From: Leptolyngbya boryana PCC 6306
GTDB taxonomy: Bacteria > Cyanobacteriota > Cyanobacteriia > Leptolyngbyales > Leptolyngbyaceae
Assembly: GCF_000353285.1 (NCBI RefSeq)
Contig: NZ_KB731324.1
Span: forward strand, 514,577-578,576
Direction of reading: 5' to 3'
Length of the DNA stretch: 64,000 bases
Below the pieces are notes generated by a model. The model did no database searches. It saw only the letters and a program-made list of their open reading frames with translations, and was not told where the DNA came from. Positions 37,970-50,939 of this stretch are shown here, piece by piece; within the stretch, counting starts at the first letter, position 1; the number at the start of each line of letters is the position of its first letter. The translations under genes were made by a program, and so were the position numbers.

Positions 37970-38353
37970 GTGAACGTTTCTTCTGCGATCGCTATTAGTC
38001 TGGGTGCAATTCCAGGTGCGCTCAGCCGTTACTATCTCACCTTATGGTTTGGGCGGGTGTTTGGGGTGCAATTTCCCTATGGAACCTTTTTCATCAACAT
38101 TACTGGGGCAATGCTGATGGGATTTTTTGTGGCGTATTTTCTCGATCGTGGCATCGGTACACCAGAGCTAAGGCTATTTTTTGCGGTCGGATTTCTCGGC
38201 TCTTACACGACATTTTCGACTTACGCACTCGAAACCTCAGTGCTGGTCAAATCTGGCAATCATAGCCTTGCTTTACTGTACTGGCTAGGAAGCGCCGCAA
38301 TTGGCTATCTCGGGTTAGAGTTCGGCAGCTTCCTGGCACGTAGACTAAGCTAA
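37970..38353 (+). CDS. crcB: CrcB/FluC fluoride channel
   Basis: The 127-residue four-helix protein matches FluC: GAIPGALSRYYLT, YGTFFINITGAMLMGF, and the signature GFLGSYTTFSTYALE (about residues 71-85). FluC forms a dimeric channel that exports fluoride. The start is a GTG at 37970; no clear ribosome binding site is visible, so the start could be slightly different. Its stop overlaps the convergent ferritin-like gene by nine bases. No fluoride riboswitch is evident in the short upstream gap. Confidence 0.93.
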   Translation: MNVSSAIAISLGAIPGALSRYYLTLWFGRVFGVQFPYGTFFINITGAMLMGFFVAYFLDRGIGTPELRLFFAVGFLGSYTTFSTYALETSVLVKSGNHSLALLYWLGSAAIGYLGLEFGSFLARRLS

Positions 38354-38794
38354 ATTCGGATGAAAATCGCGCAGCATCTTCTTCAATTCCATGCCGTGCA
38401 ATTCTTCCTGTCCAATCATTCCGCGTGTAAATTCTTCTAAATAAATGCTGGCATCCTCAACAACATCCAGCAGTTGTTTGTATAGATTCAAGGCATTCGT
38501 TTCATGGTTCAAACTTTCCAGCAAAATATCATAGACCGAGTGCTTATCGGTTTCTTCGATCGTGGCAATTCGCAAACTCGGATGTCCCTCTAATCCCGTC
38601 AGAATCTCCCCAACTTGCTGAGCATGTAGCAGGGATTCACTCGCTTGGGCTTTTAGAAATTGCACGATCGGAATCCGATTGGGTCCTGTCACCATGAGAG
38701 CATAGTGCGTATACCGAACAACTCCCGCCAATTCTGCTTCCATAATGGAATTGAGTAAGTAAGTTGTTTTGTCGAGATCAAGATCTTTCATCAT
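38345..38794 (-). CDS. Ferritin-like (bacterioferritin-type) protein
   Basis: The 149-residue four-helix protein has ferritin-like ligand segments: MEAELAGVVRYTH (helix A), ASESLLHAQQVGEIL (helix B) and MIGQEELHGMEL (helix D). In helix B, the ExxH of classical bacterioferritins is replaced by ESLLH, one residue longer. This suggests a distinct bacterioferritin-related branch, also seen in other cyanobacteria as I recall. It could oxidise and store iron. The methionine that ligates haem in Bfr is not clearly placed. It overlaps crcB by nine bases and stands alone otherwise. Confidence 0.85.
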   Translation of the reverse strand: MMKDLDLDKTTYLLNSIMEAELAGVVRYTHYALMVTGPNRIPIVQFLKAQASESLLHAQQVGEILTGLEGHPSLRIATIEETDKHSVYDILLESLNHETNALNLYKQLLDVVEDASIYLEEFTRGMIGQEELHGMELKKMLRDFHPNLA

Positions 38795-38930: not shown

Positions 38931-40313
38931 TTAAGACCCTTGCAAAAGCACATGAATTGGGACACCTAAACCCAATGAGTATCGCAGCAAAAGCAAGAGA
39001 GAAAGCGTCGTTACAAAGAAAGCCGTACAATAAACATCCTGCGTCGTACACGATAGCTTTTCTTGCTTCAACCCGTAAAGATTCACCACATACAACGGAA
39101 AATCACTCATCGCCACAACCACGATCGCACCGAGTTCACCAAATTGAGAAAATGCTAACGGCATCCCTAAGCCCACGATGCTCAGTCGAGCAAAATTACT
39201 TTGCGCCGAATACATCGGCTTGTTAATTGCCACTAAAGTCGGGCTAGTCGTATAGAACAGAATCGAAAACCAAATTCCAGAACACAGAATTGGCATCATC
39301 CAAGTTGCATCCTGGTATTGCTCCCAATGCTTATTTCGCCCTTGATACAGCAGCATAATGAACCAATCGCTGCACACCGTCAATCCGGCTAGAAAGACTG
39401 CTGTACCCACCAAAAGTAACCATCTTTGTTTCACAATTTTGGCGCGAAGCTGCAATCGCGACAAATCCAACTGCTTCGAGATGGTGGGAAAGATCACCTT
39501 TACACTCAATTCTTGAATCACACTCCGCGGAATACTCGCTAACGTGTAAGCGATCGTATATACCCCCAACCTCTCAAACGAGAGGAGCTTTGCCAAAATA
39601 AAGCGATCGGCTTGATCCGCTAAAAACATCATCGACGATGCCACCGCAATCCATTTTCCAAAATTCTGAATTTCTTTGAGAATCTCTTTATCAAACCGAA
39701 AGCGATTGTGATGTTTACGATTGACGAAATGGCTCGCCACCATGTTAATTGCCGAGCTAGCAACACCTCCGATTGCCAATGACCAGACAGACGGATGCCA
39801 CCAACACAGCAAGACCAAAATCAGAAGCGTCACGATAGTAATGCTCATGTCATAGAGCATGATCTTCTTGATTTCGATATGGCGCTCCCAAGTCAGCACC
39901 GCGGTCGAAGCTGCCCCCTCTAAGACCGCTGTAAAGCCGGTAATGGGCAACAGAAACAGGAGTTGCCCCTGCGGATCTTGGGCTTGATAAAGTTGAGCGA
40001 TTGGGTAGGCGAGCAAAATACTAATCGCCCAAATTTGAAAGCCGCGAATCACTTTCAATGACCAAGCAGTATCAAGAAACAGGGGGTCATCACCGCGCTT
40101 ATTGCTAATAATGCTCTGCGTAATCCCATAGTCGGAAAATAGCTCGATTCCGATTCTGATCGTGTTGACCAGAGCCATAAGACCAAAATACTCTGGCACC
40201 AATAAGCGCGTCAGAATCAGATTGCTGCCTAGCCTGAGAATTTGTTGACTACCGTAACCCGCAATTGTCCAGAATGCTCCCCTGAGCGCCACTTTCTTGA
40301 GTGAGTTGGTCAT
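38931..40313 (-). CDS. Polysaccharide flippase (MOP/Wzx-like)
   Basis: The 460-residue protein has roughly 12 predicted membrane helices and the N-terminal MOP pattern (VALRGAFWTIAGYGSQQILRL). Such proteins flip undecaprenyl-linked oligosaccharides across the inner membrane for polysaccharide or glycolipid assembly. Between helices there is a loop with RKHHNRFRFDKEILKEIQNFG. It lies nine bases downstream of a GH9 lipoprotein gene on the same strand, so the two are probably an operon. This is the core of the 38.9-45.2 kb cell-surface region. Confidence 0.92.
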   Translation of the reverse strand: MTNSLKKVALRGAFWTIAGYGSQQILRLGSNLILTRLLVPEYFGLMALVNTIRIGIELFSDYGITQSIISNKRGDDPLFLDTAWSLKVIRGFQIWAISILLAYPIAQLYQAQDPQGQLLFLLPITGFTAVLEGAASTAVLTWERHIEIKKIMLYDMSITIVTLLILVLLCWWHPSVWSLAIGGVASSAINMVASHFVNRKHHNRFRFDKEILKEIQNFGKWIAVASSMMFLADQADRFILAKLLSFERLGVYTIAYTLASIPRSVIQELSVKVIFPTISKQLDLSRLQLRAKIVKQRWLLLVGTAVFLAGLTVCSDWFIMLLYQGRNKHWEQYQDATWMMPILCSGIWFSILFYTTSPTLVAINKPMYSAQSNFARLSIVGLGMPLAFSQFGELGAIVVVAMSDFPLYVVNLYGLKQEKLSCTTQDVYCTAFFVTTLSLLLLLRYSLGLGVPIHVLLQGS

Positions 40314-40322
40314 ATGTTTGCT

Positions 40323-42692
40323 CTAGTCGTTCCTAGCAGTATGGGCAGCTAAATAGCCCCAGAGATAAGCGGTCGGAGAAATGGACTGCATCACCGTAAA
40401 TTCTGTCGCCATCGGAAACAGAAAAATATCAAAATACGATTCAGTGGCGGGCCAGTCCATCGGGGCAGGGAACAGAACATCTTTGAATAGGTCGATCGTC
40501 CAGGTCTTACTATAAAACACTGGGTCATACGGACCGTATACGGTAATGCCAGGCGGCGGTTCAATGCCCCGCACGCGCTGGTCAATGAGCAACGGATTGC
40601 GCGGAGTGCGGTATCCGACTCCTGTCGTGTAGGACATGTTATCGGGATTTGCGCCCAGTGAAAACTGAGTTGCGAGCACGCTCGATCGTAGATATTTCGG
40701 ATTTTGACTTAAGTAATGAGCGCGAACCAAAGACACTGCTTTCGGCGCACCAAGACCATTTCCCCACCCGATCGGATGCATCGGCATTTCTTTTGACCAT
40801 TTGAAAGCAGTTTGCTCGCCCACGGCTAATGCAGTATCCGCATCCCGCACTAGGGCATTATTCGCATTTTTCTGAACGGTTGCATCGACTAATTCTCTCG
40901 GCATTCGCGCATACAAGAACGCCGCATCGCGCTGATCATGTTCATCCCAGACGATCACATCCTGGGCGGGATCTTTGAAGACGGTCGTTTGTAGAAAGAT
41001 CTGATGCCAGGAGCCACTGCCTGTTAGTTGATAAAGTTCTAGCGCGGCTAAGTTACGACTGTCACGAACGGGTTTCGGCATTGAAGTTCCACTTGAAACC
41101 CGTTCTGCATATGCCATCGCTCGCAGGGCACTCTCTTGATAAGTTTTTGCGAGTTGGGCATCTCTAGACTTGAGCCAGTGCGCGGCTCGCGCGGCAACGC
41201 CTGCATAGAGGTAGCTTGACCAGGCATCCGGAGCATAGGCATAAATTTTGTAAGACTCTTGCCAGCTTCCTTCCCCTAAACGCGGATCGCGCTGGGATTG
41301 GATGCCGCCGCGAATTCCACCGTCAGGCGTTTGGAGGCGGCGGAAGAAGTCGATCGTCCAAAGGGCTTCATTGACCACATCGGGTAAGCGGTCTTTGGAT
41401 TCTGGGATGTTGAGCGAGACGCGATCGAAGTAGTTCGGAAAGAGTTCTGCCAATTCAAGCATGTGCCGCGAGACTTCGACATGTTGAATCCGGCGATCCC
41501 AATCGCCCGCATCAAAATAGCCGCCCCAAGCATCCGGGACAGTTTGCTTCGTTTCACCTGCCGCGAGTGCTTTGGGATATTCTGCGGTGCCGATGCCTTG
41601 ATCAACTTGAGAAATTGGCGTTTTGGATTGATACACAACCGTGCCGTCTTGCGGATGGAACGCCCGCGGGCGCGTCCATTGGGTATAGGGTGCTGTTAAG
41701 GCAATGCCGCTGCGTTGATGATAAAGTCCACGGGCTGAGGTGGAGAAGGCGTTTTTCCAAACATCGGGTCGAATCTCAAAAGAACCAGAACACCCGATCG
41801 CTTCGACGCAAACTCGATATTTCCCAGGAGTTTGCAGAGCGGTGAAATCCATCATGTACACGTTGGTATTCGTGTAATTGCGCGATCGCGGATCTTCATT
41901 TTCCTGACTCGTGCGCGAGAGTTGAGTCTTCCCGGTAAAGGCTTTGCGATTCGTCTGCTCATCAATCACAGCAAAGGGCAGACCTGCACCATATTCCAGC
42001 CGTCCCCCATTTCCGAGCCAAGTTGAGAGAAACGCCACCTTGGCGGTTTCTTTCGGAGTGAATCCGACGTGTGAAACATGCACCGCTTCACTTCGCGTCC
42101 GATTTGGCTCAAATTTAAACGAGACAGTTTCAACACTGCTGCCTGGAAAGTTGATCTGATAAGTCTTTCCAGCTTTCAGCGCGCTCGGAAGTTTCAGATA
42201 CATCGTATGCAGCATCGGAAATTCAAATTTCCATTGACCGACGCGTGCCATGTCGGTTGGTTTAGATTTGCGATAGACCGCGGTTGGATTAAGATTTGCC
42301 GAATAGGTGGAGTCTTCTTGGGAAGTAATCCGGTAGCTGGTCATGCGATCCGCCCATTGGGAATCAAACGGAGACGGGACAAATTGATCAAATGGATATA
42401 AGATGTTGCGCTGTTTGCCCACTAAAGACCCGATCGCTTTACCGTTGCGAATCACCCAATCTTCGTCCACCGGACGAGGTTGCTCAATGCGATCGCCCGC
42501 TTGGGGTTTGTAGGGAGTCTGTTGAGCGTGAATGATCTTTCCGGTTTCAATCCGAATTGCCAAAAGGTCAGGCTTGACTAAGTAAGCCTGATTCACTTTA
42601 ATCTGAGGGCGGTTGCCTGCATCGACACCCGAAACATTACAGCCGGTCAACGCTAGACCTAACCCTAGTGGAATCAAGGATTGAAGCTTCAT
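40323..42692 (-). CDS. Family 9 glycoside hydrolase, lipoprotein
   Basis: The start I prefer (complement of 42690-42692) gives 789 residues, because it opens directly with a lipoprotein signal ending LTGC (mature N-terminal Cys18). The longer frame to 42785 has no such feature. An N-terminal Ig-like (CelD-type) domain spans roughly residues 200-310. The GH9 catalytic domain follows with GGYFDAGDWDR (Asp394/Asp397 region) and ends in ATEFTVMQSISPTAYLWGYL, where the Glu fits the usual acid residue. GH9 enzymes cleave beta-1,4-glucans. It is on the same strand as, and nine bases from, a polysaccharide flippase. The substrate in this cyanobacterium is unknown. Confidence 0.9.
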   Translation of the reverse strand: MKLQSLIPLGLGLALTGCNVSGVDAGNRPQIKVNQAYLVKPDLLAIRIETGKIIHAQQTPYKPQAGDRIEQPRPVDEDWVIRNGKAIGSLVGKQRNILYPFDQFVPSPFDSQWADRMTSYRITSQEDSTYSANLNPTAVYRKSKPTDMARVGQWKFEFPMLHTMYLKLPSALKAGKTYQINFPGSSVETVSFKFEPNRTRSEAVHVSHVGFTPKETAKVAFLSTWLGNGGRLEYGAGLPFAVIDEQTNRKAFTGKTQLSRTSQENEDPRSRNYTNTNVYMMDFTALQTPGKYRVCVEAIGCSGSFEIRPDVWKNAFSTSARGLYHQRSGIALTAPYTQWTRPRAFHPQDGTVVYQSKTPISQVDQGIGTAEYPKALAAGETKQTVPDAWGGYFDAGDWDRRIQHVEVSRHMLELAELFPNYFDRVSLNIPESKDRLPDVVNEALWTIDFFRRLQTPDGGIRGGIQSQRDPRLGEGSWQESYKIYAYAPDAWSSYLYAGVAARAAHWLKSRDAQLAKTYQESALRAMAYAERVSSGTSMPKPVRDSRNLAALELYQLTGSGSWHQIFLQTTVFKDPAQDVIVWDEHDQRDAAFLYARMPRELVDATVQKNANNALVRDADTALAVGEQTAFKWSKEMPMHPIGWGNGLGAPKAVSLVRAHYLSQNPKYLRSSVLATQFSLGANPDNMSYTTGVGYRTPRNPLLIDQRVRGIEPPPGITVYGPYDPVFYSKTWTIDLFKDVLFPAPMDWPATESYFDIFLFPMATEFTVMQSISPTAYLWGYLAAHTARND

Positions 42693-43093
42693 AAAATTAC
42701 GCTTTCCGCAAATCTCCCTATCTATTCTGCAATCCAATCTCACCCAGAACCGTAAGTTTATGGAAACCTTGCGGAATTTGATCAAGTGTTTAAAGAAACA
42801 ATTTTCTCTCGCCCGATTTAAGCAATTTTCACTAGGCAGGACACTAGAATTTAATTGGATTTCAGGAGAATAAGAAGACGCTTCACAATTGTGTTGTTTC
42901 TATGAAGCTCTCCTGCACAAAGGTTCAGTAGTTATACTTATTGACTGTTGCAGACCATAGAATTGCGGAGCAATTTAGCCAAAAGTCCGGGTTCACCCAC
43001 CTTTTGACATAATTTGTTCACAGTTTGTTCACAAATGCAATTCGCTACTTGACCCAATTCTTGACTTTATTGTAGGCAGGGGATTTTTACGCT
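42693..43093. promoter_or_regulatory. Divergent intergenic region with tandem TTTGTTCACA repeats
   Basis: The region separates the GH9 gene from the divergent GT4-like gene and should hold both promoters. It has a perfect palindrome CACAATTGTG (42884-42893). Two TTTGTTCACA units (43013-43022 and 43024-43033) are spaced 11 bases start to start, about one helical turn, which suits binding of an OmpR-type response regulator dimer. A TTGACA-like sequence lies just upstream (43004-43009). Confidence 0.5.
43013..43033 (+). promoter_or_regulatory. Tandem 10-bp direct repeat, possible response-regulator site
   Basis: TTTGTTCACA is repeated exactly after one spacer base (G43023), with an 11-base period. 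The position, 60-80 bases before the GT4-like start, fits an activator or repressor site for the rightward promoter. It does not match the consensus of PhoB or RpaB closely. Confidence 0.4.
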
Positions 43094-44368
43094 ATGGATA
43101 CTAGTTTGTTACTCGTCGTTCCCGTTCCGTTCCGAGTCGTGGACGGACGCTATGGGTTGGATGAGCAAACTTGTGACGGCTTGATTCGGTGGGTTGAGCA
43201 TTTTGGTCGTGTTGTGATGGCAGCGCCAGTTTTGCCAGAGGCAGAAGCACAGGAACTTTCTAAAACCGAAACTTGGAGAGCGATCGAGGATTTGCCTTGT
43301 GCCGACCAGATTGAATTAGTGCCTTTACCATTTGCCTATAAACCAATTATTTACGTGCGTCAGTATCGGAAGATCCGTAATCTCCTGCGAGAAAAGATTC
43401 AAGAATGCCAACTGCTCTGCTTTGCGCCTGCGGTTTGGATTGGAGATTGGGCAACGGTCGCCTGCCAGGAGGCAGTTCGGCTCAATCGGTCTTATGCCGT
43501 GTGGGCAGATCGGGTCGAGTATGAAGTGACCCGACGACTGCTGAAAGAAGAAACGCTGAAGATCAGAGTCAAGGAAACGCTAACCTTGCCGTTGACGCAG
43601 AAATATGTGCAGCAGGCAATTCGACAGGCGGAGATTGGATTGTTTCAAGGACAAGACTGTTTTACCGCTTATTCTCCTTTAAATCCGAATTCCTATTGCG
43701 TCTATGACATTCACACGCAGAAATCCGATCAGATTAGCGCAGCGCAATTAGCAGAAAAGCTCGATCGACTCAAGCGCAATCAACCGCTAAAAATTTGCTA
43801 TGTCGGTCGTGCGGTCGAGATGAAAGGGGCATTTGATTGGGTGACGATCATTCACCAGTTGCATCAGCGGGGGCTGCAGCTTGAAGCAACTTGGCTTGGT
43901 GATGGGCATTTGCTCGATCAGATGAAGCAGATGGCGATCGAGTTAGGCATCGCCGATCTGATCACGTTTGGTGGATTTGTCAGCGATCGCGCTCAGATGT
44001 TAGAAACCATGCATCAGAATGATGTGTTTATGTTCTGCCACAAAACGCCGGAATCGCCGCGCTGTCTGGTAGAAGCGTTAGTTTCTGGCTTGCCGATTGT
44101 TGGGTATGACAGTCCTTATCCACGCGGCTTGGTCGCTCAATACGGCGGCGGGATTTTCACCCCATTGAATAATCCAACCGCCTTAGCTGATCAGATTGTG
44201 GCATTGGATCGCGATCGCGAAAAGCTCTGTGAACTTGTTCAGCAAGCGGCAAAATCTGGAACCCTTTACGATGAGGCAACGGTCTTTGAGCATCGCAGTA
44301 ATTTGATCAAGCAGTATGTGGTTCCGGGCAGTTTAGCAACGAAGCGAGAGGTTGCAACTGTGGGTTGA
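43094..44368 (+). CDS. GT4-like glycosyltransferase
   Basis: The 424-residue protein has a GT-B layout. Its C-terminal half has ICYVGRAVEMKGAFDWV (start of the donor domain), LGDGHLLDQM, and CLVEALVSGLPIVGYDSPYPRGLV, which includes the E-x7-E-like donor motif of GT4. It transfers a sugar from a nucleotide donor to a growing polysaccharide or glycolipid. The N-terminal acceptor half is divergent, so the acceptor cannot be guessed. It is divergent from the GH9-flippase pair and leads towards a SAM methyltransferase gene 75 bases downstream. Confidence 0.88.
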   Translation: MDTSLLLVVPVPFRVVDGRYGLDEQTCDGLIRWVEHFGRVVMAAPVLPEAEAQELSKTETWRAIEDLPCADQIELVPLPFAYKPIIYVRQYRKIRNLLREKIQECQLLCFAPAVWIGDWATVACQEAVRLNRSYAVWADRVEYEVTRRLLKEETLKIRVKETLTLPLTQKYVQQAIRQAEIGLFQGQDCFTAYSPLNPNSYCVYDIHTQKSDQISAAQLAEKLDRLKRNQPLKICYVGRAVEMKGAFDWVTIIHQLHQRGLQLEATWLGDGHLLDQMKQMAIELGIADLITFGGFVSDRAQMLETMHQNDVFMFCHKTPESPRCLVEALVSGLPIVGYDSPYPRGLVAQYGGGIFTPLNNPTALADQIVALDRDREKLCELVQQAAKSGTLYDEATVFEHRSNLIKQYVVPGSLATKREVATVG

Positions 44369-44443
44369 ATCTTCCCGCAATCGTAAAGCGGCGATCTCAT
44401 TCCCGCCACAGTACAATAAAGCGAACTTCATCGCTTGGCATTC

Positions 44444-45244
44444 ATGAAGGAAGATTTCTTAAGTCGAGAACAGGAATTTCACGATCAGTGGGCAAGTACG
44501 ATCGATGTCGATGGCATTCGAGTTTCGGACTATTTCGAGGCATGTACGGCTCCTGAAAATCGCTTTATTCTCAGAAAGCTTGGGGATGTACGCGGGAAGT
44601 TGCTGCTCGATCTTGGCTGTGGCGCAGGTGAGAATAGCGTGTATTTTGCCAAACTGGGAGCGCGGTGTGTTGCCGCAGATTATTCGCCGGGAATGGTGGA
44701 TGTGGCGCTGCAATTGGCTGAGAAAAATGGCGTGAAAATTGAAGGGCGCGTCGTGAATGCAATGGCGATCGATTTTCCTGACAATACCTTCGATATTGTT
44801 TATGCCTCGAATCTCTTACATCACATTCCCGATCCGAAAATTACCCTGCGAGAAATGCATCGAATTCTCAAACCTGGCGGCAAGGCTTGTTTTTGGGATC
44901 CGCTGCGGCATAATCCGGTGATTAATGTCTATCGTCGCATGGCAACAGAAGTGCGGACAGAGGACGAAACACCTTTAGATATTGGCATTGTCAACTTTAT
45001 TCGATCGCTTTATGCCAAAACCGATTTCGACACCTTTTGGATTGCAACGCTCTGGATTTTCTTGCAGTTTTATCTGATCGAACGCGTGAATCCCAATCAA
45101 GAACGGTATTGGAAGAAAATTATTCTCGAACAAGCTCGATTAGAGAAAACCTACTTGCGATTGGAAAAATTAGACAAGATTCTGAAAAAATTGCCGTTGA
45201 TGAAGCGGATGGCTTGGAATTTAGCAGTGGTGGCAACGAAGTAA
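44444..45244 (+). CDS. SAM-dependent class I methyltransferase
   Basis: The 266-residue protein starts at the ATG at 44444, as the upstream TTG (44435) has no support. Motif I is LLDLGCGAGENSVYFAK (about 49-65), followed by ADYSPGMVDVALQL and the motif IV/V region ASNLLHHIPDPKITLREMHRILKPGG, typical of methyltransferase type 11/25. The C-terminal part is basic with an aromatic patch (FWIATLWIFLQFYLIERVNP), possibly membrane-associated. In this location, methylation of a sugar or lipid is a reasonable guess, but the substrate is unknown. It follows the GT4-like gene. Confidence 0.85.
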   Translation: MKEDFLSREQEFHDQWASTIDVDGIRVSDYFEACTAPENRFILRKLGDVRGKLLLDLGCGAGENSVYFAKLGARCVAADYSPGMVDVALQLAEKNGVKIEGRVVNAMAIDFPDNTFDIVYASNLLHHIPDPKITLREMHRILKPGGKACFWDPLRHNPVINVYRRMATEVRTEDETPLDIGIVNFIRSLYAKTDFDTFWIATLWIFLQFYLIERVNPNQERYWKKIILEQARLEKTYLRLEKLDKILKKLPLMKRMAWNLAVVATK

Positions 45245-45277
45245 TATAAAATCGACGATCAGTTTGCGGGGGAACTT

Positions 45278-46099
45278 ATGCGGATTGGTCGATCGATATT
45301 AACCTACGGATTATTAAGCGCGATCGCAGTTCTGATGCTGATTCCGCTCGTTTGGCTCATCAGCACAGCGTTCAAGTCTCCGACTGAAGATATTTTTCAA
45401 TTTCCGCCGCGCTTTATTCCGGTCAAACCGACGCTTGAGAATTTCGTTACCGTTTGGAATAGTAATCCATTCGGACGATATCTGTTCAATAGCACGTTGG
45501 TTTCTGTGTTGACGGTTGGATTGAATTTACTATTCTGCTCATTGGCAGCTTATCCATTAGCACGATTGAATTTTGCTGGACGAGAAGTGATTTTCAGCGC
45601 GATCGTCGCAACGATTCTGATTCCATTTCAGATTGTGATGATTCCGCTGTATGTTTTAGCCGTCAATTTAGAGCTGAGAAATACTTATCTCGGCATTATT
45701 TTTCCGGCGATCGCGTCTGCATTCGGAATTTTTCTATTACGTCAGGCTTTTCAAGGTGTGCCTAAAGAACTCGAAGAAGCCGCGCGCATGGATGGCTGCT
45801 CAGAATTAGGAATTTGGTGGCATGTGATGATTCCCTCGATTCGTCCGGCTTTAGTCACGTTGGCGATTTTTGTCTTTATCGGATCGTGGAGTGATTTCTT
45901 GTGGCCGCTGTTGATCCTCGATCGACCTGAATTTTTCACGCTGCCACTGGGAGTCTCAAATCTTGCGGGAACGTTCACACTCGACTGGCGCTTAATTGCC
46001 GCAGGATCCGTCATCTCGATTTTGCCGATTCTGATTTTCTTCTTGGTGATGCAGCGCTATATCGTTCCGACGGAAGCCGGAAGCGGGGTGAAAGGATAG
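45278..46099 (+). CDS. Carbohydrate ABC transporter permease (MalG-type), apparently orphan
   Basis: The 273-residue permease has six predicted membrane helices and the EAA motif EEAARMDGCSELGIWWHVMIP (about 168-188) that docks the ATPase. It belongs to the CUT1 sugar-transporter permease family (MalG/GgtD-like). No partner permease, binding protein or ATPase is in the window, so its partners must be elsewhere. GGGGGAA lies just before the ATG. It sits in the 38.9-46 kb region of surface-glycan genes, 33 bases after the methyltransferase, so cotranscription with it is possible. Confidence 0.88.
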   Translation: MRIGRSILTYGLLSAIAVLMLIPLVWLISTAFKSPTEDIFQFPPRFIPVKPTLENFVTVWNSNPFGRYLFNSTLVSVLTVGLNLLFCSLAAYPLARLNFAGREVIFSAIVATILIPFQIVMIPLYVLAVNLELRNTYLGIIFPAIASAFGIFLLRQAFQGVPKELEEAARMDGCSELGIWWHVMIPSIRPALVTLAIFVFIGSWSDFLWPLLILDRPEFFTLPLGVSNLAGTFTLDWRLIAAGSVISILPILIFFLVMQRYIVPTEAGSGVKG

Positions 46100-48323: not shown

Positions 48324-49910
48324 ATGACTGCTTCTGCACTTTGGCAACGCTATCAAGACTGGCTGTATTATCACGAGGGGTTAGACTTCTATCTCGATAT
48401 CAGCCGAATGCGGTTTGACGATCGCTTTGTAGAAACGATGCTGCCAAAATTCGAGCACGCTTTTGCTCAGATGAAAGACCTCGAAGCAGGCGCGATCGCG
48501 AATCCAGACGAAAATCGTATGGTCGGACATTACTGGCTGAGAAATTCCGACCTTGCCCCGAATGCGGATCTGAAAAAAGATATCGTCGAAACGATTCAGC
48601 AAATCGAATCGTTCACGCACGATGTTCATTCTGGTGCAATCCATCCCCCGAGTGCCACCAAATTTACCGATGTCTTATCGATCGGGATTGGGGGATCAGC
48701 GCTCGGTCCTCAATTTGTAGCCGAAGCCTTGAGTGCGGATGCGCCTGCAATGGCAATCCATTTTATCGATAACACTGATCCCGCCGGAATCGATCGCGTC
48801 TTAGCCAAATTGGGCGATCGCTTAAGCACGACTCTGGTCGTTGTGATTTCTAAATCCGGTGGCACTCCAGAGCCTCGGAACGGCATGCTAGAAGTTCAGA
48901 ACGCCTTCCAAGAAAAAGGGTTGGATTTTAGCAAGCAAGCGATCGCAATCACCGGAACAGGCAGCAATCTCGACCAATTAGCAAAATCCGAAGGCTGGAT
49001 CACTACCTTCCCGATGCACGATTGGGTGGGCGGTCGAACATCAGAACTCTCAGCCGTTGGACTGGTTCCCGCAGCCCTGCAAGGCATCAACATTCACGAA
49101 ATGCTAGAAGGCGCGAAAGAAATGGATATCGCCACGCGCATTCCTGATCTCAAATCCAATCCAGCGGCACTGCTCGCGCTTTGCTGGTACTTTTCCGGCG
49201 ATGGCAAAGGCAAAAAAGATATGGTGGTCTTGCCGTACAAAGACAGCTTGCTCTTGTTCAGCCGCTATCTTCAGCAGCTAGTCATGGAATCCTTGGGCAA
49301 AGAAAAGGATCTCGATGGCAATGTGGTGCATCAAGGCATCGCAGTCTATGGCAACAAAGGCACAACCGATCAGCACGCTTATGTTCAACAACTGCGGGAG
49401 GGTGTGCCGAATTTCTTTCTCACCTTTATTGAAGTTTTGAAAGATCGATCGAGTGCTTCGATCGAAGTTGAACCTGGTGTTACTTCGGGCGATTATCTTT
49501 CTGGATTGCTCCAAGGAACTCGTAAAGCTTTGTATGAAAATGAACGGGATTCCATCACTTTAACGATTCCAGAAGTGACCCCGCGAATGGTTGGAGCTTT
49601 GATTGCGTTATACGATCGGGCTGTGGGTCTATACGGATTTTTAGTCAATATCAATTCATACCATCAACCAGGTGTAGAAGCAGGTAAGAAAGCTGCTGCG
49701 GTTGTTTTGGATGTTCAAAGCAAGGTGATGGAAGCCCTCAAAAAAGAGAACACACCAATTCCACTTGCAACTTTGGCACTCAATGCAGGTGTGCCAGATG
49801 ATGTTGAATCCGTTTACAAAATTGTGCGACATTTAGCGGCGAACAATCGTGGCATCACTCTTCATGGTGATCCTGCGAAACCGGGAAGCCTAACGGTCAG
49901 CGCTACCTAA
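48324..49910 (+). CDS. pgi: Glucose-6-phosphate isomerase
   Basis: The ATG at 48324 is preceded by GAGGG at about eight bases; an upstream TTG (48309) adds five residues without support. The 528-residue protein matches phosphoglucose isomerases of the cyanobacterial type: [33 protein letters not shown], and [19 protein letters not shown]. It interconverts glucose-6-phosphate and fructose-6-phosphate, linking glycogen, the oxidative pentose phosphate pathway and glycolysis. It is convergent with the CsaB-like gene, overlapping it by 21 bases. Confidence 0.97.
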
Positions 49911-50939
49911 CACTTCTTCAAGAATAGTTTGATGAAAGAAAGCTCGATCGACTAAGGAATGAATTTGATTCTCTGAGAGTGAGTCGCCATTGGCATAAAG
50001 CTCGAGCCATAGGTGACTCAACTCATTTGGATCTGTTGGCAAACCTGCGATCGCACATCCTGCCATCTCTAGATCGCTCATGAGTTGAGTCACTTTCGGG
50101 TCGTAGCTTAGTCCAAAACAGCGACAGCCTTCTGACGCTGCCATGATCAAGGCATGTAGTCGCATCGCGATCGTCATTTCCACGCCTCGAAACACGCCTT
50201 TTAATTCTTGCGGGTGTTTGATCTGCAAAATATGACTAACTTCGGGAAGTGCTTCATGCAGCGATTGAGCGAGGGCAAAATCTTGGCTCGCTTGAAACGG
50301 CAGAAGTAATAGACACGTCTGCGTCGCTTTTTGAAAATCAATCAATGCACGGGTGAAAACTGCAATTCGCTCTGGCGTGAGATGTTTGTGCGATCGCAAA
50401 TTCACTGCTACTCGCGGCGCAGGTAAATTCCATAAGCCCTCAACTGGAGTCGATTCCATTGCCCAAACGGGATCAGGCGCAAGAGTGAAAGGAATTTGCC
50501 ACTGATTCAATAAAGCAGCCGAAGCCTGATCTCGAACGCTGACTTTTGTGCAACGTTGAAACGTCGATTTTGTAAAACCTTTGACCCACGATCGCTGAAG
50601 CGGCCCAATTCCCTGTGCCCAAGCGATCGTTTTCAACCCCATGAACTGCGCTAAGCGCATCAAACCACCGTAATAGATGGGATTCATTGCACTGGTGGAA
50701 TCCTGCATCAAACTGCCGCCGCCCCAGATAAAGGCTTGCGATCGTCGTAATGCGCTGAATACTTCTGGAAAAGATTTGCGATGACAGCTTTCGACACCGT
50801 AGCGATCGCGCGTCTGAGCCGGATCGCCGGAAAGCACGATCGGCTCAACCTGTTTCGGGAGAAGTTGCAGAAGCGAAGCGAGCAAGGCTTCATCCCCAGC
50901 ATTTCCCATGCCATAGTAGCCGCATAAAACAACACGCAT
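49890..50939 (-). CDS. csaB: Polysaccharide pyruvyl transferase (CsaB-like)
   Basis: The 349-residue protein opens with [23 protein letters not shown] and has [17 protein letters not shown] and [25 protein letters not shown], matching the CsaB/WcaK pyruvyl transferase family. CsaB adds pyruvate ketals to cell-wall polysaccharides, which anchors SLH-domain proteins. This fits a cyanobacterium with an S-layer or SLH-containing outer-membrane porins. Its 3' end overlaps pgi by 21 bases on the opposite strand. The start ATG is clear. Confidence 0.9.

Follow-up and report, generated by a model that had tools for sequence, protein, structure and literature searches.

A GH9 lipoprotein gene coupled to a Wzx-type flippase in Leptolyngbya boryana, and its probable place in a split Wzx/Wzy exopolysaccharide pathway

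In Leptolyngbya boryana PCC 6306, a gene for a Wzx-type flippase comes straight after a gene for a lipoprotein of glycoside hydrolase family 9 (GH9), which in turn diverges from a gene for a glycosyltransferase. We analyzed this trio within a 64,000-nucleotide stretch of the genome (the window, whose numbering is used below). The GH9 gene (40323–42692, minus strand) encodes 789 amino acids from an ATG at 42692, 93 nt downstream of the start picked by the open reading frame (ORF) caller, and its product matches PF00759 (83.5 bits, against a gathering score of 27.7) and PF02927 (40.2 bits, above cut-off). The flippase gene (38931–40313, minus strand) begins 9 nt after the GH9 stop, and the two may be transcribed as an operon; it encodes a MOP-family protein of 460 residues (PF13440 150 bits, PF01943 92 bits, both above cut-off). 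Across an intergenic region at 42693–43093 lies the GT4-type glycosyltransferase, here GT4a (cluster c15; 43094–44368, plus strand; PF00534 70 bits, above cut-off). Two more plus-strand genes follow, for a methyltransferase (end at 45244; PF08241 96 bits) and a sugar-type ABC permease (45278–46099; PF00528 70 bits; ∼2.6 kb from GH9). An earlier sequence-only reading of this DNA had placed five genes here, with GH9 and flippase nine bases apart on one strand; the coordinates confirm that spacing, all five are open at or very near the positions it gave, and domain matches back each. It had also spoken of a promoter region between the diverging genes. The divergent layout stands, whereas a consensus scan of 42500–43200 found no promoter-like site.

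A genome-wide search finds only one GH9 gene. Its product begins with a signal sequence closed by a lipobox (LTGC, residues 15–18, with the cysteine at 18), followed by an N-terminal immunoglobulin (Ig)-like domain that has no name, a CelD_N Ig-like domain and the GH9 catalytic domain. A lipobox-like cysteine is present in one other sequence from the window's genus and one from Myxacorys in our alignment, and is absent from L038. Residues D394 and D397, within a DAGD motif (41502–41513, minus strand), and E764 (40401–40403, minus strand) show no variation across 64 aligned GH9 sequences, the window's included. We take the two aspartates to be the catalytic aspartates of GH9 and E764 to be its catalytic acid, and because all three are invariant we expect catalysis by the usual GH9 residues. 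The structure model (predicted local distance difference test, pLDDT, 93.7) aligns from residue 193 with CelD-type structures (4cj0, Z 31.4; 1clc, Z 31.0; root-mean-square deviation 2.4, 505 residues), and also with the xyloglucanase BoGH9A (6dht, Z 30.6) and the GH9 xanthanase PspXan9 (6fhn, Z 26.4). As modelled, then, the protein is a GH9 fold with a preceding Ig-like domain, of the CelD type.

The 6fhn and 6dht alignments begin at model residues 199–201, leaving residues 30–198 unmatched. The domain at residues 30–204 (42081–42605, minus strand) is conserved in the family, as seen in an alignment of 55 sequences. It has no Pfam name at E ≤ 0.1 in the window protein and no Foldseek match at E ≤ 0.001. 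Modelled alone (pLDDT 93.1), it forms an Ig-like core with an insertion, and the structure closest to it is an Ig-like domain from a Bacillus S-layer (Z 10.4, 90 residues aligned). In three other genomes, family GH9 lies inside far longer ORFs (L052 in G355, 1702 aa; L181 in G008, 1509 aa; L047 in G243, 1063 aa), where it is probably fused to further domains. Judged from its sequence, the window enzyme is predicted to hydrolyze beta-1,4 bonds, and the glucan-like polymer that the sequence-only reading had in mind is a plausible fit to GH9 specificity.

To place the locus among its relatives, we searched 388 genomes of the class for GH9 and found matches in 44; one of these, G064, matches part of GH9 at 27% identity and was left out, giving a GH9+ set of 43 genomes. 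Named genomes of bacteria and archaea were scanned as well; 479 GH9 relatives were confirmed there, and we used the best 80 of the 479, comprising 36 with cyanobacterial titles and 44 with other titles; at two of these 80 loci (L100, L127) no GH9 ORF was called. Neighborhoods were compared by clustering the genes of 40 stretches from whole genomes together with those of the window, while some GH9 matches (e.g. G243:C528, G367:C253, G169:C112 and G082:C96) were used without a reading of long flanks under these labels. Genera are numbered: g1 is the window's own, g3 is Myxacorys, g92 is Nodosilinea and its kin, and g103 is Leptothoe and its kin. One caveat here is that the ORF picker takes the longest ORF, so that starts are approximate and small genes may have been missed, above all in G+C-rich loci.

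In all seven g1 and g3 loci, the flippase comes directly after GH9 and is co-directional with it. Between the two ORFs the gap spans –52 to +9 nt; where it is negative, a start too far upstream was probably picked. Six of the seven loci, the window among them, have GT4a upstream of GH9 and diverging from it, with 308–530 nt separating the called ORFs; L035, the seventh, is cut off by the end of its contig. In an eighth genome (G265), GH9 is divided between two contigs; one fragment is followed by the flippase and the other neighbors GT4a. Since the window's genome has only six PF13440 matches in 7.26 Mb, two of them weak, adjacency in seven of seven loci puts the pairing of GH9 and flippase beyond chance. 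Immediately downstream of the window's flippase is a ferritin-like gene (38345–38794, minus strand), a close homolog of which is found near the flippase in Myxacorys californica (L036/L073, 84%) and Leptolyngbya sp. Prado105 (L076, 96%).

The remaining two genes fared differently. Neither the methyltransferase nor the permease, both counted as part of the neighborhood by the sequence-only reading, clusters with any gene in the 40 other stretches. A sensitive check of L032–L151 gave three weak domain matches for the methyltransferase (27–31%, at most 136 aa) and no match at E ≤ 1e-5 for the permease. On these grounds we rejected both as pathway members.

In Myxacorys, the region past the trio continues with Wzy (PF04932), a second glycosyltransferase (GT4b), an epimerase, a Gfo/Idh/MocA protein and a GT2, and then a WecG-type transferase and Wzc. 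GH9 also lies amid many of these families, with Wzx, Wzy, Wzc and GT4b in every case, in Alkalinema RU_4_3 (L041), a Pseudanabaenaceae metagenome-assembled genome (MAG; L050/L095), Synechococcales CRU_2_2 (L104) and MS008 (L071), the last with a Poly_export gene as well. Altogether, GH9 is linked to at least one profiled exopolysaccharide (EPS) family in 8 of 15 GH9-bearing cyanobacterial genera (g1, g3, g11, g15, g29, g52, g54 and g58), or in 7 of 15 if a locus common to genomes G237 and G059 is counted once. The coupling of GH9 to a flippase, and with it a surface-glycan role, as the sequence-only reading had suggested, is thus supported by a conserved unit in g1 and g3 and by this wider linkage. 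G237 and G059 are the MAGs Alkalinema RU_4_3 and Synechococcales CRU_2_2; their GH9 is identical (L041/L043, also L078/L096), and one of the two may be mis-binned at this locus. In a quickly built tree of GH9 (61 rows, with long-branch warnings), the linked state requires 6 changes compared to a shuffle mean of 15 and is found on several deep cyanobacterial branches; the labels come from cyanobacterial profiles only, and proteobacterial loci with other flippases were scored as unlinked. A somewhat different arrangement is seen in G057 (L038, L178), where GH9 lies between Wzy and a run of genes that includes three sulfotransferases and Wzc; Wzx and additional glycosyltransferases lie ∼15 kb away. 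GH9 here seems to be part of a cluster for a sulfated EPS.

In the window's genome the corresponding genes are found in two places. Of its six PF04932 matches, one scores 577.6 bits with the cluster Wzy profile, whose own neighborhood matches score 593–706 except for three at 276–383. This gene belongs to a second block (block 2; L174, G000:C1:3278001–3298000), ∼2.7 Mb from the trio at 0.55 Mb. In a profile scan of the block, this Wzy scores 576.5 bits, and orthologs of GT2 (572.7 bits), GT4b (545.6), the hexapeptide acyltransferase (322) and Wzc (935) are present along with a WecG-family transferase, as Pfam matches also show; profile searches found neither a PF13440 flippase nor GH9 there. 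The outer-membrane exporter OPX (PF02563) has four matches in the genome, none of them in the window or block 2. Wzy stands beside GT4b in the other five GH9+ genomes of g1 too (L194–L198, two of them on contigs shorter than 8 kb). Within reach of these stretches, the acyltransferase is present in four of five, WecG in three, Wzc in two, MocA and the epimerase in four and GT2 in one, and no flippase or GH9 is detected by profile around Wzy. In two genomes (G204, G244), Wzy and GH9 share a contig, 0.4–0.5 Mb apart. As the split is seen in all six GH9+ genomes of g1 and the parts are joined in Myxacorys, we regard it as a feature of the genus.

These separated parts are inherited together. Of the eight g1 genomes, six have GH9, Wzx, GT4a and Wzy, and two (G170, G258) lack matches to all four at the thresholds used. 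In g92, where 13 of 26 genomes contain GH9, a Wzy relative scoring at least 225 bits is found in 10/13 GH9+ genomes versus 0/13 GH9– genomes. With a laxer threshold of 200 bits the figures are 11/13 and 0/13, four GH9– genomes having weaker matches of 155–182 bits. Cellulose synthase, our control, shows no such pattern (9/13 versus 10/13). Wzc lies nearby in four of the five g92 Wzy loci read, and a Poly_export gene was confirmed in L186, the only one tested. Such within-genus contrasts are an incomplete control for phylogeny, and the g92 genomes with GH9 may form one clade. Across the 388 genomes, in Fisher tests that ignore phylogeny, Wzy at 225 bits or more is present in 29/43 GH9+ genomes versus 8/345 others. 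Wzx at 435 bits or more occurs in 16 genomes, 13 of which have GH9, compared to 30 of the other 372.

Some GH9 loci outside the cyanobacteria show a related arrangement. The family occurs in records titled cyanobacteria, proteobacteria, planctomycetes, verrucomicrobia, armatimonads, Poribacteria and others; it is also carried by a record titled Candidatus Thermoplasmatota archaeon (L116), a case of possible mis-binning or transfer. A MOP flippase lies within the fetched stretch at 6 of the 44 non-cyanobacterial loci (L110, L120, L123, L141, L142 and L148; by Pfam for L110, L120 and L142), all six with proteobacterial titles in the older, wide sense. A Wzy-type gene is also present in L141 (by Pfam) and L148, with a short piece in L142. 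The cyanobacterial Wzx profile matched only L110 (104 bits) and L148 (34 bits), and therefore the pairing of GH9 with a flippase recurs with distant flippases.

We put at roughly two in three the probability that GT4a, GH9 and Wzx are one half of a split Wzx/Wzy EPS pathway whose polymer GH9 hydrolyzes. The other half would be Wzy, Wzc, GT2, GT4b, the WecG-type transferase and the hexapeptide acyltransferase. In this scheme, glycosyltransferases would assemble a lipid-linked repeat unit, the window's Wzx would flip it to the far side of the inner membrane, and Wzy and Wzc from the distant block 2, as the putative partners of that Wzx, would polymerize and export the chain. The GH9 lipoprotein would be anchored on a periplasm-facing or outer surface, where it may cleave beta-1,4-glycosidic bonds of the polymer. 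Its effect could be to control chain length, to clear misplaced chains or to release the polymer.

Several observations weigh against this proposal. GH9 is unlinked to the profiled EPS families in 7 of the 15 GH9-bearing genera (g27, g31, g47, g53, g92, g103 and g140). In all 13 g92 loci GH9 lies apart from EPS genes and next to an N-acetylmuramoyl-L-alanine amidase gene, mostly together with a GTP cyclohydrolase; near it in g103, genes for a glycine-cleavage-type protein, a NUDIX protein and a racemase recur. Both genera are counterexamples to the idea that every GH9 relative lies in an EPS cluster, which we did not favor. The sequence-only reading had named random placement without co-occurrence in relatives as evidence that would count against it: the placement is indeed of that kind in g92 and g103, but co-occurrence persists in g92, where Wzy tracks GH9. 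Outside the cyanobacteria, 38 of the 44 loci show no flippase in the fetched stretch, many of these being short contigs. The cellulose synthase BcsA, like Wzy, associates with GH9 across the class (33/43 versus 76/345, phylogeny again ignored). We read this figure as showing how far shared ancestry alone can reach, and therefore place weight on the within-genus contrasts. Eight genomes have Wzy at 225 bits or more and no GH9, four of them (G129, G252, G313 and G380) above 300 bits; G129 and G252 hold large clusters with glycosyltransferases, Wzy and Wzx, and in G129 also Wzc. Given such GH9– genomes with close Wzy clusters, GH9 is optional rather than essential to the pathway. Finally, block 2 might instead rely on the flippase of a different cluster in the window's genome, which also has Wzy and Wzc and looks complete; this cluster (L175) is at 3.41 Mb, ∼0.12 Mb from block 2.

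Of the alternatives, the one that survives best is that the product built and trimmed by the trio stays anchored to the cell (O-antigen, sheath or S-layer glycan) instead of being free EPS. PF04932 spans both Wzy and O-antigen ligases, and a CsaB-type polysaccharide pyruvyl transferase (49890–50939; TIGR03609 377 bits, above cut-off) lies ∼5.5 kb from GT4a, both of which would suit an anchored product. However, the Wzc-type co-polymerase that recurs in the clusters and in block 2 is a better fit to EPS or capsule export, and none of the other GH9 neighborhoods (L032–L151) contains a CsaB match at E ≤ 1e-5. We consider this explanation unlikely.

Less likely still is a role for GH9 in trimming cellulose made by the cell itself, with the flippase a neighbor by coincidence. 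The model for such a role is BcsZ, the GH8 hydrolase of bacterial cellulose synthase operons, which likewise accompanies synthesis of a beta-1,4-linked polymer; it differs from the window's enzyme in family and in serving a synthase-dependent pathway. The genome does have a cellulose synthase operon, and the class-wide association of BcsA with GH9 points the same way. But this operon lies at 6.12 Mb (L204:8911–17590), far from GH9 at 0.55 Mb, and carries BcsA-PilZ, BcsB and a TPR protein, with a GH8 hydrolase between the last two, so cellulose synthesis is already served by its own hydrolase. Moreover, within genera it is Wzy and not BcsA that follows GH9, in g92 as described and in g1, where BcsA is present in 6/6 GH9+ versus 1/2 GH9– genomes, and Myxacorys californica (G034) is GH9+ with no BcsA match at E ≤ 1e-150. 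We therefore rejected cellulose trimming as the principal explanation.

No better placed is the possibility that GH9 is a scavenging cellulase that feeds on environmental or plant beta-glucans: although the solved relatives found by sequence are mostly cellulases, the g92 and g103 genes lie away from EPS genes and the sugar-type permease could serve uptake, GH9 is single-copy, has a lipobox instead of plain secretion and no cellulose-binding module among its Pfam matches, its coupling to Wzx is conserved in the window's own lineage, and the permease is unmatched in other GH9 neighborhoods.

PspXan9 and BoGH9A share the GH9 fold with the window enzyme; both are degradative, and we know of no report of either being encoded with synthesis genes. 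The gene slr0897, considered as a cyanobacterial GH9 precedent, led nowhere. Hydrolases of other families encoded with EPS synthesis genes are known: PslG (GH39) and PelA (PMC10485009), and WpsE (GH26) of an actinomycete cluster (PMC13390465). PslG offers a close parallel as a periplasmic glycoside hydrolase encoded with the Wzx/Wzy pathway of the Pseudomonas aeruginosa Psl operon (PMC10485009), the differences being its family and its single operon, as against GH9 and a split locus. WpsE is likewise a hydrolase in an EPS cluster with a WecG-family transferase, wps-1 of Actinoplanes missouriensis. The wps-1 cluster has two predicted sulfotransferases (PMC13390465), whereas none is found in the window trio or the block 2 genes scanned. 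Since the layout resembles these systems but the enzyme is GH9, we view the locus as a variant of a known hydrolase–EPS arrangement. Synechan (xss) of Synechocystis 6803 is, like our proposed pathway, a cyanobacterial Wzx/Wzy EPS system with one part (OPX) elsewhere in the genome; it includes sulfotransferases, and a hydrolase goes unmentioned in the available part of that paper (PMC8205485). PspXan9 cuts beta-1,4 linkages in lyase-treated xanthan backbone, according to a review (PMC10881899). Among the titles and opening abstract lines listed by searches of open-license PMC papers, none matched GH9 together with a Wzx/Wzy pathway or a flippase. Most likely, the window's GH9 serves to trim, or to set free, a Wzx/Wzy EPS whose backbone is beta-1,4-linked, in the manner of PslG but from another hydrolase family.

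Cyanobacterial EPS genes have already been described as dispersed around the genome, singly or in small clusters (PMC4594306); the present analysis adds which of these genes are probably partners. Such scatter obscures which flippase, polymerase and hydrolase cooperate, and joined clusters in relatives, together with co-absence within genera, indicate the partners of a split pathway. In this case one Wzx, one Wzy, one Wzc and one hydrolase can be named as a testable set. More speculatively, and with the odds in our view against it, the broad GH9 subfamily marked by a DAGDWDRR signature and its own N-terminal Ig-like domain might be a hydrolase devoted to editing EPS, acting on Wzx/Wzy polymers whose backbone resembles cellulose (a cyanobacterial counterpart of xanthan) and tied functionally to the polymerase even when the genes are megabases apart. 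If GH9 does edit the polymer, it would provide a handle on the chain length and release of slime, and a beta-1,4-linked backbone would be predicted.

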